Below are positions 23,111-29,759 of a DNA stretch of 64,000 nt, piece by piece. The notes below the pieces were generated by a model. That model saw only the letters and a program-made list of their open reading frames with translations, ran no database searches and was not told the DNA's origin. Position numbers and translations under genes: made by a program. This DNA is from Halobacteriales archaeon YIM A00013 (lineage in GTDB: Archaea > Halobacteriota > Halobacteria > Halobacteriales > Haloarculaceae). Location: contig JAKCFM010000001.1 of assembly GCA_025041195.1 (NCBI GenBank), positions 2,108,001 through 2,172,000 of the forward strand, in the 5' to 3' direction. Positions within the stretch are counted from its first letter, which is position 1; every line of letters starts with the position of its first letter.

Positions 23111-23596
23111 TTATCCACGGCTGAGCCACAGCAAAACGACCGCGCCACAGAACAGTGAGAGCACGACCCCGATCGGGTAGCCACCATCGATCGAGCTGTA
23201 GACCACATAGCCAGCTGCCCCGAGCAAGGTTGCCACGAGGACGGTAATCGACAGATGGACGGCAAGCAGCCGCCGTGTTGGCGTCGCACGGCCGAGCGTC
23301 CGAGCGAGATCACTGGTGTACAGATGGGAATCCCAGGCCCCGATCAGGAGGACCATCCCTGTGAGGATGGGAACCGGCCCAGCACCCACAACTCCCGCTG
23401 TGAGCAGCCCGAGAAGCTGACAGACCGCCCCGACGCCAGCGAGCAGTCGACGTTGAGTGTGTGTTGCAGCCACCAGTGCCACACCACCAACGAGCGCCAC
23501 AATCGCCCCAACGCCGGTCGTGAGTACGACGCCGAGCGAAAAGACGCCGGTGAGAACGACACCAGCTCGTGGTGGCCGATCGTCGAACGCGCTCAT
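23111..23596 (-). CDS. Membrane protein, DUF7519-like
   Basis: A 161-residue protein with about five hydrophobic segments, starting MSAFDDRPPRAGVVLTGVFS and ending in GVVLSLFCGAVVLLWLSRG. It is the last gene of the DUF4129-DUF7269-DUF58 operon, and its ATG overlaps the DUF58 stop as ATGA. Its position, length and topology fit the DUF7519 family that accompanies these genes in other haloarchaea; the family name is from memory. Function unknown. Confidence 0.65.
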   Translation of the reverse strand: MSAFDDRPPRAGVVLTGVFSLGVVLTTGVGAIVALVGGVALVAATHTQRRLLAGVGAVCQLLGLLTAGVVGAGPVPILTGMVLLIGAWDSHLYTSDLARTLGRATPTRRLLAVHLSITVLVATLLGAAGYVVYSSIDGGYPIGVVLSLFCGAVVLLWLSRG

Positions 23597-24891
23597 CGCG
23601 ACCACCGGCGGACTGCACGCTCGACGCTCACCTGGATCGATTCATCCCGCCAGTCGAGACACCGAATGCCGTCATTGCGGAGCGAGCGCACGCGTTCAGC
23701 GCGCTCAAGGGCTGCAACTGCAACGCGTGGAGCGTCCGAGTCATCATCGACTGATATGGTCGGATCAGGACTCACAATCGTCGTGGGATAGCCATGCGCC
23801 ATCAGTCGTCTCCCAGCCAGTGCTGGATACGAATCGGCCAGTGGCGTACAGAGGACAACCTGCGCGTCCGATGGGAGTCGGTGTCGAAGTTGCGTGAGCA
23901 TCGTTATCGGCAGATACGGCTCCGTGGGTGCGATCGGTTGGAGCGCTGGATGTGTCCCAAACAGTTTCCGGAGTTGGCTACGGTGATCATCGCCCGTACT
24001 GGGTTCGAGCCAGCATTCCGTTGGCGAGAGCGCACTGACACCGACGCGATTGGTCGTCCGTAACAGCCCCTCCGTGATGGCGTGGGCCCCCGCAATCGCT
24101 CGCTCGATGGCCGGTTGACCGTCCGGGTCTGCGTTGCAGTACGCCTGTGCGCGGGCATCAACCACCACAACAACGGTTGCTGCCCGCTCGCGAACGTACT
24201 CGATCGTCGAGAGTTCGCCAGTGCTAGCCGCCCGGTTCCAGTCAATGCGACTCGGCGGATCGCCACGGCGATACTCACGAACGGCGTGAAACTCCGTGCC
24301 GCTCCCGCCAGATTGTGTTGCTATTCGACCGGTTGACCCAACCGCCTGTCCGTACAGGGCGAGTTCGACGGGCTGTGGCGCTGGGGGAACACAGCTCACC
24401 GACGACTGGCCCATTACCGGAACGCGAAACTGGCGAATGAGTGTTCCTGTTGCATTTCCAATAGAAATCCAGCAATCATCGAACTCGTGAACGCCACGTG
24501 TTGCCGTGATCGTATACTCCGTCGTGACAGTGCCTCCGGGGGCGAGGGGCCGACCCAGCCGTGGTGAGCCATCGCTAACGGCGAGTGCGGGTGGAACGCC
24601 ATCGACTGCCCGACAGTCATAACAGATCGACTCGCTTCGATTCGTAATCCGCAGCGTGACCGTCACCTCCTCACCGGCTGTTGGGGTCGCCGTTGACAAT
24701 GAGCGGCTGATATCGATCGCGTGGTTCGGTTCGCTGTCAATCCGGTCGGCAAAGGCGAATCCGACCGCAACGACGCCGGCAAGCACAAGCACGGGCGACC
24801 CCGCCAACACACCCACACCGATGCAACAGAACGACACTCCGGCGATCCCATACCAGCGATTCGTCCGCTGGACGTCGGCTGCCTCAGCCAT
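23593..24891 (-). CDS. DUF58 domain protein
   Basis: A 432-residue protein with two membrane helices near the N-terminus (about 12-50), an immunoglobulin-like extracellular segment (AGEEVTVTLRITNRSES, VHEFDDCWISIGNATG), then the DUF58 signature EFHAVREYRRGDPPSRIDWNRAASTGEL and a vWA-like C-terminal region (TVVVVVDARAQAYC). DUF58 proteins work with MoxR ATPases, probably in maturing or chaperoning surface or envelope complexes. ATG at 24891 overlaps the upstream gene by 8 bases. The MoxR partner is 3.8 kb away on the same strand. Confidence 0.88.
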   Translation of the reverse strand: MAEAADVQRTNRWYGIAGVSFCCIGVGVLAGSPVLVLAGVVAVGFAFADRIDSEPNHAIDISRSLSTATPTAGEEVTVTLRITNRSESICYDCRAVDGVPPALAVSDGSPRLGRPLAPGGTVTTEYTITATRGVHEFDDCWISIGNATGTLIRQFRVPVMGQSSVSCVPPAPQPVELALYGQAVGSTGRIATQSGGSGTEFHAVREYRRGDPPSRIDWNRAASTGELSTIEYVRERAATVVVVVDARAQAYCNADPDGQPAIERAIAGAHAITEGLLRTTNRVGVSALSPTECWLEPSTGDDHRSQLRKLFGTHPALQPIAPTEPYLPITMLTQLRHRLPSDAQVVLCTPLADSYPALAGRRLMAHGYPTTIVSPDPTISVDDDSDAPRVAVAALERAERVRSLRNDGIRCLDWRDESIQVSVERAVRRWSR

Positions 24892-25453
24892 CGGTTTTCC
24901 CTCGTTCGATGCGCGCGGAGAGCGCCCCAATCGCCCGGTTCAACCGATGTCGATAGACATCATCGGGTGATCGAAGCGACGCAAGCCGTTCAGTAAGCGG
25001 CATTTCGACGGTATCAGGGGCAAAAAATGCCTGTGCGTGTGGGTCGGTGGTCCAGGTTCCAGAATCAAGTCGCTCTTTCGCGCGCGTGCGCGAGTTACCA
25101 TCGTATCGAACGAGCACGTCGATCGCTAGCTCGCGAACAGCATTGCGCCCCTGCTTTTGGGCACGACGACGGGCACGATACGACAGACGTGGCTGATCGA
25201 ACGCATCGATTTCGGTTTCTGGTGTTGGTACGGTGGCGACCTGGAGCTGTTCAACCGCAGGAGCTGTCGAACGAGTTCGATTGCGACCGTAGCGGGCGTG
25301 GGCGAGCATGAACGAAACGAACAGGGCCACCAGACCGATTACAAACAGCAGTTCCCGTGGTCCAGCAACGCCCCCAAGAAGGGCCGGATTGAGAAGTCCA
25401 AGCAGTCCGCCTACCGAAACGAGTACGCCGACGAGCAGTACACCTCTATTCAT
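24884..25453 (-). CDS. DUF7269-like membrane-anchored protein
   Basis: A 189-residue protein with two N-terminal hydrophobic helices (about 1-30 and 35-52) and a basic cytoplasmic part containing LSYRARRRAQKQGRNAVRELA and ERLASLRSPDDVYRHRLNRAIG. This matches the small protein usually placed between DUF4129 and DUF58 genes in haloarchaea. It starts 3 bases after the DUF4129 stop, so the operon is continuous. Function unknown; a linker or scaffold of the MoxR-DUF58 machine is a reasonable guess. Confidence 0.65.
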   Translation of the reverse strand: MNRGVLLVGVLVSVGGLLGLLNPALLGGVAGPRELLFVIGLVALFVSFMLAHARYGRNRTRSTAPAVEQLQVATVPTPETEIDAFDQPRLSYRARRRAQKQGRNAVRELAIDVLVRYDGNSRTRAKERLDSGTWTTDPHAQAFFAPDTVEMPLTERLASLRSPDDVYRHRLNRAIGALSARIERGKTDG

Positions 25454-25456
25454 CGA

Positions 25457-26359
25457 TCAGTCACCGTTCCGTTCGGTATCGTCGCGGTCGATTCGTCGCC
25501 GTGCCTCAATCGCCCGCCGTTCACGGGCTGGTGTTGCCGATTCAGTACCATAGCGTGTCGCTTCGAACAGTGCAGTGAGCGTTTCGACAGCCGCCGGATC
25601 CATGCCCGCCTCGATGGCTGCAGCAGCAAATTCGCGTGGCGTCGTCGTTTCGAGCGGTAAGGCAAGCTCTGTTGCCATCGACTTCCAGGCCTCGGTGATC
25701 GCATTCTCTGCTGTCGGATTGGGGGTGTACTCTGCCGCCGACTGGGGCTCGGACGAGTCAGTGACCGTCGACGCGGTGGAATCGGAGTCAGAGTGACCCG
25801 AAGATGTGAGGATGGGACGCGACCCGAATCGGTCAGCCCCGTACAGGATGAAAACAAACGCGACCACCACAACAGCGAGCACCACCCCCGCGACGAGCAG
25901 TGGTTCGGGCAGGGCTGTTGCGCTCCCAGACCCACCACCCATCCCGCCAGATCCACCGGGTGTTGTCGCCGTGGGTCCTGCTGTGGAAGGTGAGCCCGGT
26001 TGCGACGACGATCCACCAAGCAACAGGAGCACCCCGACAACGACGAGGGCAACGATCGCGATGACAACTGGACCAACCAGCGACCGGAGCCCCTCGCGAT
26101 ACAGCGTTATCACAAGTAAACAGCATCCCACAACGAGTAACAGCGCAAAAACAACTTCCAGGACTGCAGTGAGCAAGGTGTTCGAGCCATCGATCGTGAT
26201 CGGTTCAGTGTTTGTAGCCGCCACTGACTCGCTTGATTCGCCATCCCCCTCACCTGCTGAGCCCGGTGTGGTGGGCTGATCTACCGTCGCTCCGGCGGCC
26301 GCTATCGTGAGCCCAATGAGTGCGGCGAGCCCAATAGCACGGAGACGGTCGCGATTCAC
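25457..26359 (-). CDS. DUF4129 domain membrane protein
   Basis: A 300-residue protein: signal-like helix at the N-terminus (RLRAIGLAALIGLTIAAAGA), Gly/Ser/Thr-rich external loops, further helices around 70-115 and 155-180, and the cytoplasmic DUF4129 motif at the end (WKSMATELALPLETTTPREF then VETLTALFEATRYGTESATP). DUF4129 is usually found with DUF58, MoxR and transglutaminase-like proteins. No ATG fits; GTG codons at 26365 and 26359 are the likely starts, and the much longer upstream frame crosses the divergent phosphoesterase gene. No transglutaminase is present here. Confidence 0.78.
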   Translation of the reverse strand: MNRDRLRAIGLAALIGLTIAAAGATVDQPTTPGSAGEGDGESSESVAATNTEPITIDGSNTLLTAVLEVVFALLLVVGCCLLVITLYREGLRSLVGPVVIAIVALVVVGVLLLLGGSSSQPGSPSTAGPTATTPGGSGGMGGGSGSATALPEPLLVAGVVLAVVVVAFVFILYGADRFGSRPILTSSGHSDSDSTASTVTDSSEPQSAAEYTPNPTAENAITEAWKSMATELALPLETTTPREFAAAAIEAGMDPAAVETLTALFEATRYGTESATPARERRAIEARRRIDRDDTERNGD

Positions 26360-26442
26360 ACTCACACTGATAACTGCACCACTATGGATGTAACGACATG
26401 TCAACACCCAACATTCAAGGATCGATAGCACGGAGGTGAGCC

Positions 26443-27105
26443 ATGCAGATTGGAGTGATCGCTGACGTTCACGCCAATCGACCGGCGCTTTTGGCCGTCC
26501 TGGAGGCACTGGGCCCTGTCGACCACCTCCTCTGTGCGGGCGATATCGTCGGCTATAATCCATATCCAGCATGGTGTGTGAACCGTGCACAGGAGTCGAT
26601 GCTCTGCGTGCAGGGAAATCACGACCGACTGGTTGACGCCCCCGAACCGTATCGCTCGAATCAGATGGCGTATGCTGGACTGTGTTACGCCCAGGAACAG
26701 CTGTGTGAAAACCAGCTCCGCTGGCTGGATTCCTTACCAGAAGAACGGACGCTGATCGACGGCGCGATCCGAATGGTGCATAGCCATCCGGCCAACCGGG
26801 ATCAGTACGTCCGACCGGCACAGTTTTCCACGCTCGAACCACACCTCCGAGAAGAAGCCGTGCTCATCCTCGGGCACACCCACATGCAACACACCGAACG
26901 CGTTGGCGAGACGCTCGTTTGCAATCCCGGGAGCGTTGGCCAGCCACGGGATGGCGATCCACGCGCGGGATACGCCGTGATCGACACGGAAAGCTACTCG
27001 GTCACCACCCATCGCGTCACTTACGATATCGAGACGGTACAGCATGCAATCGAGGCAGCAGATCTCCCGTCAGAAACGGCCGACCGGCTCAATGCCGGCC
27101 GATAA
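26443..27105 (+). CDS. Metallophosphoesterase, YfcE/MJ0936 type
   Basis: A 220-residue calcineurin-like phosphoesterase. All metal motifs are present: DVHAN (Asp9, His11), GDIVGYN, GNHD (Asn, His), MVHSHP and LGHTHMQ, followed by NPGSVGQPRDGDPRAGYAVID, the C-terminal signature of the YfcE/MJ0936 group. Likely a Mn/Ni-dependent phosphodiesterase; the natural substrate is unknown. With the next gene it forms a plus-strand pair lying between moxR and the DUF4129 operon. Confidence 0.9.
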   Translation: MQIGVIADVHANRPALLAVLEALGPVDHLLCAGDIVGYNPYPAWCVNRAQESMLCVQGNHDRLVDAPEPYRSNQMAYAGLCYAQEQLCENQLRWLDSLPEERTLIDGAIRMVHSHPANRDQYVRPAQFSTLEPHLREEAVLILGHTHMQHTERVGETLVCNPGSVGQPRDGDPRAGYAVIDTESYSVTTHRVTYDIETVQHAIEAADLPSETADRLNAGR

Positions 27106-27244
27106 ATGAAGAGATATCACAGTTCATAACTGTTTACGATCGTTTCACATCGTTTTACTCGGTGACTGATGGGGCCACTGTACTCGGGTGAACAAAAAAA
27201 GGTCTATGTGTACGGACCGAATCGATTATGATATTGGTAGAAGA

Positions 27245-28720
27245 ATGTCGAGATATCAGTCTCCCGGGCGCGTGATCAGCCTGGTGATATTTTTAGGGCT
27301 GTTCCTGCTCGGATCGACTGTAGGAGTCGTGAGCAGTGCCCCAGCAGTCGCCGTCGATGACGTGTCGGTTGCGTCGGACTCGGTCGTCGAAACCGAGGCA
27401 AATGGACCACACATTGCAGCCTGGAAAGGCCTGGGAGTCAACTCGACAGTAAGCGGCGAGACGGGCGAGTACTACGTCTGTCTCAGCATTGGCACTGAGC
27501 TACAAAAACAGTCGATTAGCTGTAAAACCATTCACCACTCGGGAGCAACCGAATCAATCCAGTTTACTGAGCAGTCGCTCCCGACGAATGTGAGCGAGAG
27601 CGAAACGCTCCGAATTGAACTCTACGCGAACGGGAGTTCCGCAACCCCGATCGATACTGCCACACAGCAGGTAACAGTGCTCAAAAAGGGAAGTGACCCT
27701 GATGACGACGGGATAATCACTGGTGACGAACTGTCAAACGACGCAGATCCAATGCGGGAAGACACTGACAGCGATGGGCTCGACGACGGAAGTGAGATTC
27801 GAGAGTATAAGTCAAATCCAGCCAAAAAGGACACGGACGGCGATGGCTTGAGCGATGGCGTCGAAGTCGAAGAGCCGTTTTCTGATCCGACGAAAAACGA
27901 CACTGATGGAGACGGATTGAACGACACCGTCGAGATCAACAAACACCAGACGCATCCAAACAAGGTCGATACGGATGATGACAACCTCACCGATTTCGCA
28001 GAGCTCAACGACCACGAGACGAATCCGACACATGCCGACACCGATGGCGATGGACTGGCTGACGACCGGGAAATCAGAATCGGCTCGAATCCGAAGGAAT
28101 CAGATTCTGACAACGACGGGCTCGCTGATGGGGCAGAGATGGATCACAACACGAATCCGACAAAGCCAGACACCGACGGTGATGGTCTGAAGGACGGTGT
28201 TGAAGTTCATAAACACAACACGGATCCAACCGAGGAGGACACCGATGGTGATGGGGTTGACGATCTCACCGAACTCGAACGCGGCACGGATCCGAATCCA
28301 CAGCCGTTTTATCTGTTCGCTCCGCTGGAAAATCCGGTGAAAACGGCAGGGACAGCGCTCGCCGTGCTCGTGATTGGGGTTGGCGGATTCGTCTATCGAC
28401 GCCGCAGTACGGAGGGGAGTACACCTGTCGAACCCGCACCGGAACACCCGACTGCGTCGCCGAGCGTACCGATTGACCAACAGCCAGCCGAGCCACTCAC
28501 CGACGCAGACCACATCCAGCAGCTGCTTGGCACTAACGACGGCCGGATGCACCAGTCGGAAATCGTCGAATCAACTGGTTGGTCGAAATCGAAAGTGAGC
28601 CGGCTGCTCTCACGGATGGAAGACAACGACGAAATCAGCAAAATTAGCGTTGGACGAGAGAATCTCATCACCCGACCCGGTGATGAACCCAAGCACGCCG
28701 GCTCGACGTTCGAAGAGTGA
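27245..28720 (+). CDS. Calcium-repeat transmembrane protein with cytoplasmic winged helix
   Basis: A 491-residue single-pass protein. After a signal helix (SLVIFLGLFLLGSTVGVVSS) comes an extracellular domain, then nine thrombospondin-type-3/EF-like repeats of about 22 residues (for example DTDGDGLSDGVEV and DTDGDGLADDREI), which should bind Ca2+. A membrane helix (AGTALAVLVIGVGGFVYRRR) follows, and the cytoplasmic end is a winged helix: MHQSEIVESTGWSKSKVSRL then LLSRMEDNDEISKISVGREN, as in haloarchaeal DUF7343-type regulators. The layout is that of a one-component transmembrane sensor: outside ligand, inside DNA. It ends 2 bases from the convergent moxR stop. ATG at 27245 was chosen for the signal peptide. 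Confidence 0.85.
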   Translation: MSRYQSPGRVISLVIFLGLFLLGSTVGVVSSAPAVAVDDVSVASDSVVETEANGPHIAAWKGLGVNSTVSGETGEYYVCLSIGTELQKQSISCKTIHHSGATESIQFTEQSLPTNVSESETLRIELYANGSSATPIDTATQQVTVLKKGSDPDDDGIITGDELSNDADPMREDTDSDGLDDGSEIREYKSNPAKKDTDGDGLSDGVEVEEPFSDPTKNDTDGDGLNDTVEINKHQTHPNKVDTDDDNLTDFAELNDHETNPTHADTDGDGLADDREIRIGSNPKESDSDNDGLADGAEMDHNTNPTKPDTDGDGLKDGVEVHKHNTDPTEEDTDGDGVDDLTELERGTDPNPQPFYLFAPLENPVKTAGTALAVLVIGVGGFVYRRRSTEGSTPVEPAPEHPTASPSVPIDQQPAEPLTDADHIQQLLGTNDGRMHQSEIVESTGWSKSKVSRLLSRMEDNDEISKISVGRENLITRPGDEPKHAGSTFEE

Positions 28721-28722
28721 GA

Positions 28723-29715
28723 TTAGACGGTTGGAACCGCCACCCGGTCGAACACGCCATCGATGACTGCTGACCGTGAGACTCCATCGACCAGTGCGTC
28801 CGTCGTGAGCACGAGTCGATGTGAAAGGACCGGTGTTGCAAGCCTGCGCACATCGTCAGGGGTGACGTACGACCGACCAACTACCACTGCTCGCGCCCTG
28901 AGAAGCTCACAGAGCTGCTGTGTTCCTCGCGGACTCACCCCAACTTCAACCCGTGAATCTTCTCGCGTTTCACGACAGATCGACGCTACATACTCCAGGA
29001 GATCAGGATCGACTGTCACCGATTCCGGAACGGTCCGAATCGATTGGACGGTCGACTCGTTGAGCACTTGTTCTACGCCTGGCGTTCGATTCGCTCGGTT
29101 GAGCCGCCGAGAAAGCAGTTCAACTTCACCGTCGAACTCTGGGTACCCGAGGCTCGTTTTGACCGCGAATCGATCGAGCTGGGCTTCGGGGAGGCCGAAC
29201 GTCCCATCCATCTCGATCGGGTTCTGCGTGGCGATAACGAAAAACGGCTCAGGGAGCTGATGGGTCGTCCCTTCAACGGTGACCTGTCCTTCGGCCATCG
29301 CCTCTAGCAGGGCGCTCTGCGTTTTCGGTGGTGCGCGATTGATCTCATCCGCGAGCACGACGTTTGCAAACAGCGGCCCCTCGCGAAACTCGAACTCGTG
29401 GGTCCGCTCGTTGTACAGTTCGGTCCCGGTGATGTCGGAGGGCAACAGATCCGGCGTAAACTGAATTCTAGAGAACGAAAGCCCAAGCGCGGTCCCCAGC
29501 GAGCGGGCGGTGAGCGTCTTTCCGGTTCCGGGCACATCCTCTAACAACACGTGCCCACGACCGAGAAATCCAACGAGCACCTCTTCAAGAAATCGTCGTT
29601 CACAGATCACTGCCGACTGAATGGATTCGAGAACTGTCGAGGTGTGCTCAGTCGCCGTCTCGAGTGCCATCATCTCCGTCCCGGAGTCCGATGACGAATT
29701 TGTCGCCTGATCCAT
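28723..29715 (-). CDS. moxR: MoxR-type AAA+ ATPase
   Basis: A 330-residue MoxR chaperone ATPase. Walker A is EDVPGTGKTLTA (residues 60-70), Walker B VVLADEINRAPPK, sensor 1 FFVIATQNPIEMDGTFGLPEAQLDRF, and the lid carries VEVGVSPRGTQQL. MoxR ATPases remodel partner proteins, typically DUF58/vWA proteins; the natural partners are the genes at 23593-26359. Here the usual contiguous arrangement is split by two plus-strand genes. ATG at 29715 was preferred to a GTG six codons upstream. Confidence 0.92.
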   Translation of the reverse strand: MDQATNSSSDSGTEMMALETATEHTSTVLESIQSAVICERRFLEEVLVGFLGRGHVLLEDVPGTGKTLTARSLGTALGLSFSRIQFTPDLLPSDITGTELYNERTHEFEFREGPLFANVVLADEINRAPPKTQSALLEAMAEGQVTVEGTTHQLPEPFFVIATQNPIEMDGTFGLPEAQLDRFAVKTSLGYPEFDGEVELLSRRLNRANRTPGVEQVLNESTVQSIRTVPESVTVDPDLLEYVASICRETREDSRVEVGVSPRGTQQLCELLRARAVVVGRSYVTPDDVRRLATPVLSHRLVLTTDALVDGVSRSAVIDGVFDRVAVPTV

Positions 29716-29759
29716 ACTGTGGGACAGTGACACAATGGCTTCGGTGTTGTGATTGTCTC

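Follow-up and report, generated by a model that had tools for sequence, protein, structure and literature searches.

A thrombospondin-type stalk protein with a cytoplasmic winged helix represents a widespread family of predicted membrane-anchored regulators in haloarchaea

The stretch of DNA analyzed here (the window, 64,000 nucleotides) carries on its plus strand, at 27245..28720, an open frame of 491 amino acids encoding a transmembrane winged-helix protein with a stalk of thrombospondin type 3 (TSP3) repeats; an alternative in-frame start, a GTG at 27188, would add 19 residues. By hydropathy the protein has two hydrophobic stretches, that of a predicted signal peptide (27245..27337, approximately residues 1–31, hydrophobic core 10–28) and a single membrane helix (28337..28393, residues 365–383), which is followed by YRRR on the cytoplasmic side. 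Between the two lie a membrane-distal beta-sandwich tip domain with Trp60, Cys79, and Cys93 (27350..27688, residues ~36–148, from the AlphaFold2 model and the two-cysteine count) and nine predicted calcium-binding repeats of the TSP3 type (27695..28306, residues 151–354). The repeats start at residues 151, 173, 196, 219, 242, 265, 287, 309, and 332, i.e., with a spacing of 22–23 residues; the G is missing from one of them, which reads DTDDDNLTD. Pfam scores six stretches as TSP3_bac (PF18884, E=3.9e-31, 106.9 bits, above the cut-off), while nine repeats are counted by eye; as the ligand residues are present they are predicted to bind Ca2+. On the other side of the membrane helix there is a flexible linker rich in proline and acidic residues (28394..28489, residues 384–415) and a cytoplasmic winged helix of the DUF7343 type (28490..28684, residues 416–480) with the recognition helix WSKSKVSRLLSRM.

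The winged helix is matched by PF24034 (DUF7343) with E=1e-25 and 89.8 bits against a cut-off of 27.6, and the IclR-type helix-turn-helix (HTH_IclR) also scores above its own cut-off. AlphaFold2 folds the C-terminal domain as H-E-H-H-E-E, i.e., a helix, a short strand, two further helices, and two wing strands, with 10-residue blocks over model residues 11–70 at pLDDT 90–94. The best Foldseek matches of this model are DNA-binding domains of the MarR/ArsR type, including HsmR with DNA bound. Residues Q437, W446, S447, V451, S452, R453, G470, and R471 are 100% conserved in 103 relatives and take in the core of the recognition helix, WSKSKVSR, as well as the wing; the recognition-helix residues as a whole are 90–100% invariant. 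The preliminary description had read the protein as a membrane-anchored one-component regulator with nine calcium-type repeats outside, one membrane helix, and a winged helix inside. This reading is supported: the repeat starts and the PF18884 match account for the first part, hydropathy for the second, with a matching helix in 102 of 103 members, and Pfam, Foldseek, and the canonical winged helix predicted by AlphaFold2 (core pLDDT >90) for the third, and the architecture is kept in 130 members. What that description missed is the N-terminal domain of about 110 residues, the family, a second type of gene neighborhood, and the promoter array, all considered below.

A profile of the tip domain was searched in 392 genomes of the order (E <= 0.001) and matched in 121 of them, some of these matches being to TSP3 repeats only. 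The winged helix is also found in 104 of 114 fetched open reading frames with a full tip domain, and 103 distinct family proteins from 31 genera make up the first set. All 27 members fetched later have the winged helix, which is thus kept in 131 of the 141 tip-domain frames examined. The co-occurrence in the first set and its repetition in the held-out members argue for a stable and widespread haloarchaeal family, which comprises at least 130 proteins, each with the winged helix, from more than 30 genera. The family is undescribed, and its members are publicly annotated as 'helix-turn-helix domain-containing protein', 'MarR family transcriptional regulator' or 'thrombospondin type 3 repeat-containing protein'. 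Within the DUF7343 group the family is in the minority, as most of the best 80 DUF7343 loci in GTDB are of another type, and its distribution within genera is uneven, with members in three of the seven Halocatena genomes searched. The orthologue of Halocatena marina, which belongs to the same genus as the source of the window, is only 47% identical to the window protein. Three paralogues of the DUF7345-DUF7343 type are present in the genome of the window; Pfam finds DUF7345 in all three and not in the window protein.

Some members are arranged in other ways. Genera g46 and g37 have two family members approximately 30–50 kb apart in opposite orientation on one plasmid-sized contig of 58–89 kb (L192/L219, L194/L225, L200/L215, L216/L217, and L229/L232); in most cases the two occupy separate glycan or DUF58 islands. 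At L198:7330-8025 and L123:7356-8234, a Haloferax denitrificans contig, the gene is split over two frames, the tip and first repeats in one and the last repeats and winged helix in the other, by either a frameshift or an assembly error. Nine proteins of family f12 (L063, L242, L245, L248, L249, L251, L256, L260, and L266) consist of the tip and TSP3 repeats without a winged helix; L063, which was read through, has a hydrophobic stretch at its C-terminal end. They appear to be surface proteins that branched off from the regulator or preceded it in evolution.

Directly upstream of the window gene, and co-oriented with it, lies a metallophosphoesterase gene (26443..27105, plus strand, Pfam). The two genes are adjacent and co-oriented also in H. 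marina and Halomarina, and the metallophosphoesterase may be functionally linked to the regulator. The pair is enclosed by a MoxR-DUF4129-DUF7269-DUF58-DUF7519 module: moxR, encoding an AAA_3 ATPase, is the convergent neighbor (28723..29733, minus strand, Pfam), and the DUF4129, DUF7269, DUF58, and DUF7519 genes of the same envelope module occupy 23111..26374 on the minus strand (Pfam). The domain calls confirm the original placement of the gene between moxR and the DUF4129-DUF58 genes. The same gene set surrounds the pair in H. marina and likewise in Halomarina, there with moxR on the other side.

Neighborhoods of 6.5 kb were compared with those of 71 control loci, i.e., DUF7343 genes of the DUF7345 type. 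At least two surface-polysaccharide genes (UDP-sugar dehydrogenase, GT2/GT4, GlmS, GlmU, DegT, Gfo/Idh, DUF354, DUF1616, and others) were found at 48 of 103 family loci vs. 3 of 71 controls (p=2e-10), and MoxR, DUF58, or DUF4129 near 17 of 103 vs. none of 71 (p=1e-4), in a comparison in which the family loci served to define the neighbor clusters and closely related genera are not independent data points. The MoxR-type context occurs in nine of 31 genera, belonging to three families, and requires at least three changes on the tree, most simply seven. In 18 of 31 genera a gene for another winged-helix protein, DUF7344, lies close to the family gene, in most cases right next to it and in the same orientation; DUF7344 proteins usually have one or two membrane helices. 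A separate group of genera, in families f5 and f6 (L174, L177, L178, L054, L176, and relatives), has the gene flanked by ligA and uvrC, frequently together with an ABC transporter; this is a DNA-repair setting instead of a surface one, which weighs against the surface-regulator reading.

The promoter region of the window gene holds two elements. The first, at 27122..27155 (plus strand), is a candidate operator of four GTTY units at an exact 10-bp spacing (GTTCATAACTGTTTACGATCGTTTCACATCGTTT), a layout shared with the H. marina orthologue, which has GTTC/GTTT/GTTT/GTTT at the corresponding upstream place. The second, AAAAAAAGGTCTATG at 27194..27208 (plus strand), is conserved upstream of the Halocatena and Halomarina orthologues. 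The four-unit pattern occurs once in the window and in none of 100 Markov-simulated windows. Family-wide enrichment was assessed with a rule (units GNAAC or GTTNC, step 9–12 bp) that was fixed on the 103 loci and compared with 1159 control upstream regions. At least two units were present in 26/103 family promoters vs. 35/1159 controls, and at least three relaxed units in 15/103 vs. 3/1159. As the rule had been shaped on these 103 loci it was tested on the 27 held-out members, where at least two units were found in 8/27 vs. 35/1159 (p=2e-6) and at least three in 5/27 vs. 3/1159 (p=2e-7), the carriers including genera new to the first set (g61, g82, and g106). The Haloferax mediterranei member has TAAAC-GAAAC-TAAAC upstream of its operon, ahead of a DUF7344-like gene. 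In three quarters of the family promoters, among them those of all the 14 loci of g5, no array is recognizable. The idea that every DUF7343 gene has an array was rejected, since only 2 of 70 DUF7345-type promoters carry one, and so was the idea that every DUF7344 gene has one, as most lack them. Phased direct repeats at the promoter of a putative regulator suggest, from their layout, cooperative binding and autoregulation.

A motif search found no array upstream of the moxR or DUF4129 genes, nor elsewhere in the window, and direct control of moxR through the same array was therefore set aside for the window. The earlier proposal that the protein controls the moxR and DUF58 genes accordingly survives as a neighborhood link, which recurs in at least three parts of the tree and in nine of 31 genera, but not as an array upstream of either gene at this locus. 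In the genome of the window the exact triple GTTT array occurs once, against one match of a reversed control pattern, and with one mismatch allowed there are 12 matches against 11 for the control, so that no regulon can be read from this genome. In 20 relatives at least about 63 array matches were listed vs. a handful of control matches; a regulon was not accepted there either, as many matches are inside genes, where Glu-Thr codons may inflate the motif, and the clearest promoter cases are DUF7344 genes.

In two related genomes phased GAAAC arrays of five units (L302:2309-2355) and four units (L303:2231-2265), followed by the TATA-like CTTTATTA, lie immediately ahead of a lone DUF7344 gene that is distant from the TSP3 gene, and at L311 an array also precedes a DUF7344 gene. 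Since DUF7344 genes that stand alone can thus have an array, their product may be what binds it. DUF7344, or a third factor, would then bind the arrays while the TSP3 protein is a surface-sensing partner, whose winged helix serves mainly for pairing or modulation; the tandem DUF7344 neighbors in many genera are in line with this. On the other hand arrays also precede TSP3 genes without a DUF7344 neighbor (in the window, H. marina, Halomarina, L048, L199, L276, and L287), most of the DUF7344 promoters examined are without arrays, and the TSP3 protein has an invariant recognition helix. We regard this division of labor as the most serious of the alternatives, albeit an unlikely one, and favor binding of the arrays by the winged helix of the TSP3 protein itself.

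The extracellular part of the protein combines a constant and a variable element. The tip domain matches no Pfam family in a search with the window protein, and is modeled by AlphaFold2 as a beta-sandwich (pLDDT 90.5). A tip with exactly two cysteines is found in 103/103 members of the first set and 27/27 held-out ones, i.e., in 130/130, although the first cysteine is displaced by two residues in two of the 103; W60 is present in 99% of the 103. The cysteines correspond to model residues 55 and 69, on the adjacent strands 50–59 and 64–74 of one hairpin, and their spacing of 6–26 residues across members is as expected of a hairpin loop of variable length. In the model their placement is compatible with a cross-strand disulfide, which they probably form. 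A redox switch was considered for the pair and rejected, as a purely structural disulfide would explain it just as well. The Foldseek matches of the tip, namely accessory domains of glycosidases, a porphyran-binding module, Wzt, and NPC2, are weak (best E 1.8e-4, TM about 0.5); they are generic beta-sandwiches and too weak to name a ligand. The number of TSP3-type repeats on the other hand varies from 2 to 12 across the family, and a loop Asp is replaced by Ser or Asn in some genera (DTSGNG). The constant parts of the family are the winged helix and the two-cysteine tip domain. The variability in number makes the repeats look like a stalk and, taken with the constant cysteine pair, the tip like the sensing part.

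This bears on the original suggestion that the protein senses Ca2+ directly. TSP3 repeats could gain or lose Ca2+, or stiffen with salinity, and pass the change to the winged helix; the window protein has nine near-canonical loops, and every member examined has at least two repeats. However, variation in both repeat number and ligand residues would be unusual for a tuned sensor, and the invariant features of the ectodomain sit in the tip, outside the repeats. Brines contain millimolar Ca2+, and the repeat sites would therefore be saturated. Ca2+ sensing as the conserved function was consequently dropped as the leading idea, and we hold it to be improbable.

The linker between the membrane helix and the winged helix is 23–146 amino acids long across the family. 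A long, flexible linker in all members is compatible with a signal-triggered proteolytic cut in or near the membrane that frees the winged helix as a soluble regulator, but known transmembrane regulators can do their work while tethered (PMC10269533; ArnR, PMC6396743), and release appears to us just as improbable as Ca2+ sensing. A chiefly structural role as a surface protein or adhesin, in which the winged helix would make protein-protein contacts and have no part in transcription, would fit the nine f12 proteins without a winged helix but is very unlikely in view of the 90–100% invariance of the recognition helix, the arrays upstream of family genes, and the retention of the winged helix in nearly all tip-domain frames.

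On balance we lean toward a single-pass, membrane-anchored one-component regulator that monitors the cell surface and acts at the phased arrays and on a surface island. This regulatory function is inferred, as are the class of ligand, the protein that binds the arrays, the targets, and whether control is positive or negative. The beta-sandwich tip, of a disulfide type, would be held off the membrane by a calcium-filled TSP3 stalk, the length of which would be adjusted lineage by lineage and set its reach. A surface component, i.e., a glycan, the S-layer, or a secreted protein, may bind or displace the tip and thereby change how the regulator molecules are spaced or oligomerize in the membrane. 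Their MarR-like winged helices, which stay tethered, could then bind the phased GNAAC (GTTNC) half-site arrays cooperatively, either at the regulator's own promoter or at that of an operon of DUF7344 and the regulator, and occupancy of the array would set the regulator's own level. Together with the DUF7344 membrane partner, where present, the regulator would set the state of the surface-glycan or MoxR/DUF58 island. The arrangement suggests that information on the cell's own surface is passed straight to the gene. Against this model, the sequence does not account for the way in which a signal would cross a single membrane helix and a linker of 30 residues. It is tempting to speculate, as a rather doubtful extension, that in each species the length of the stalk corresponds to how thick its S-layer or glycan coat is, the regulators multimerizing on phased arrays to regulate coat or envelope genes; if true, the protein would be a ruler-like sensor of the state of the cell coat that acts directly at the DNA.

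At least 130 proteins are grouped here into one family, which has a specific candidate operator, a pair of cysteines that is never lost, and recurrent links to surface-glycan and MoxR/DUF58 islands. The hypothesis is directly testable in the genetically tractable Haloferax mediterranei, where an intact member (E6P09_RS17105) is encoded in a glycan island and has an array upstream. In the literature library searched, no paper names DUF7343 and none links thrombospondin type 3 with haloarchaea.

Transmembrane transcription regulators (TTRs) combine a DNA-binding domain with at least one membrane helix, single-pass proteins being the commonest (Demey et al., 2023, PMC10269533). The window protein shares the predicted DNA-binding domain and the membrane helix and is likewise single-pass; by sequence it is a TTR, with a predicted role in transcription. 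The main text of that survey has no mention of thrombospondin, calcium, or Halobacteria, and the TSP3-stalk architecture, the two-cysteine tip, and the operator arrays are absent from it. Haloarchaeal membrane proteins of the DUF7345-DUF7343 type (PF24036 and PF24034) have the same C-terminal winged helix, membrane helix, and linker, but a DUF7345 ectodomain with neither TSP3 stalk nor two-cysteine tip, different gene neighbors, and almost no promoter arrays. ArnR/ArnR1 of Sulfolobus is an archaeal membrane-bound one-component regulator of surface structures, with an N-terminal HTH, a HAMP-like and a sensing domain, and two C-terminal membrane helices (PMC6396743). The window protein has the opposite order, a large ectodomain, and just one membrane helix, and it falls outside the definition of ArnR. 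Regulators of the ToxR/CadC type have an N-terminal, OmpR-type Trans_reg_C domain, whereas the window protein has no Trans_reg_C match and a C-terminal winged helix. Archaeal clusters of MoxR-type ATPases with Ig-like surface proteins have been proposed to act in secretion or membrane remodeling (Makarova et al., 2015, PMC5898192). There, a MoxR-family ATPase is found beside membrane and Ig-like surface proteins, and the DUF1616 (pfam07760) proteins of that system occur near the TSP3-stalk family too; a TSP3-stalk regulator is not listed in the parts of that paper considered here, and the link made here is one of gene neighborhood only. Finally, surface proteins of the TSP3_bac type (PF18884) have the same type of repeat, which the window protein joins to an intracellular winged helix.
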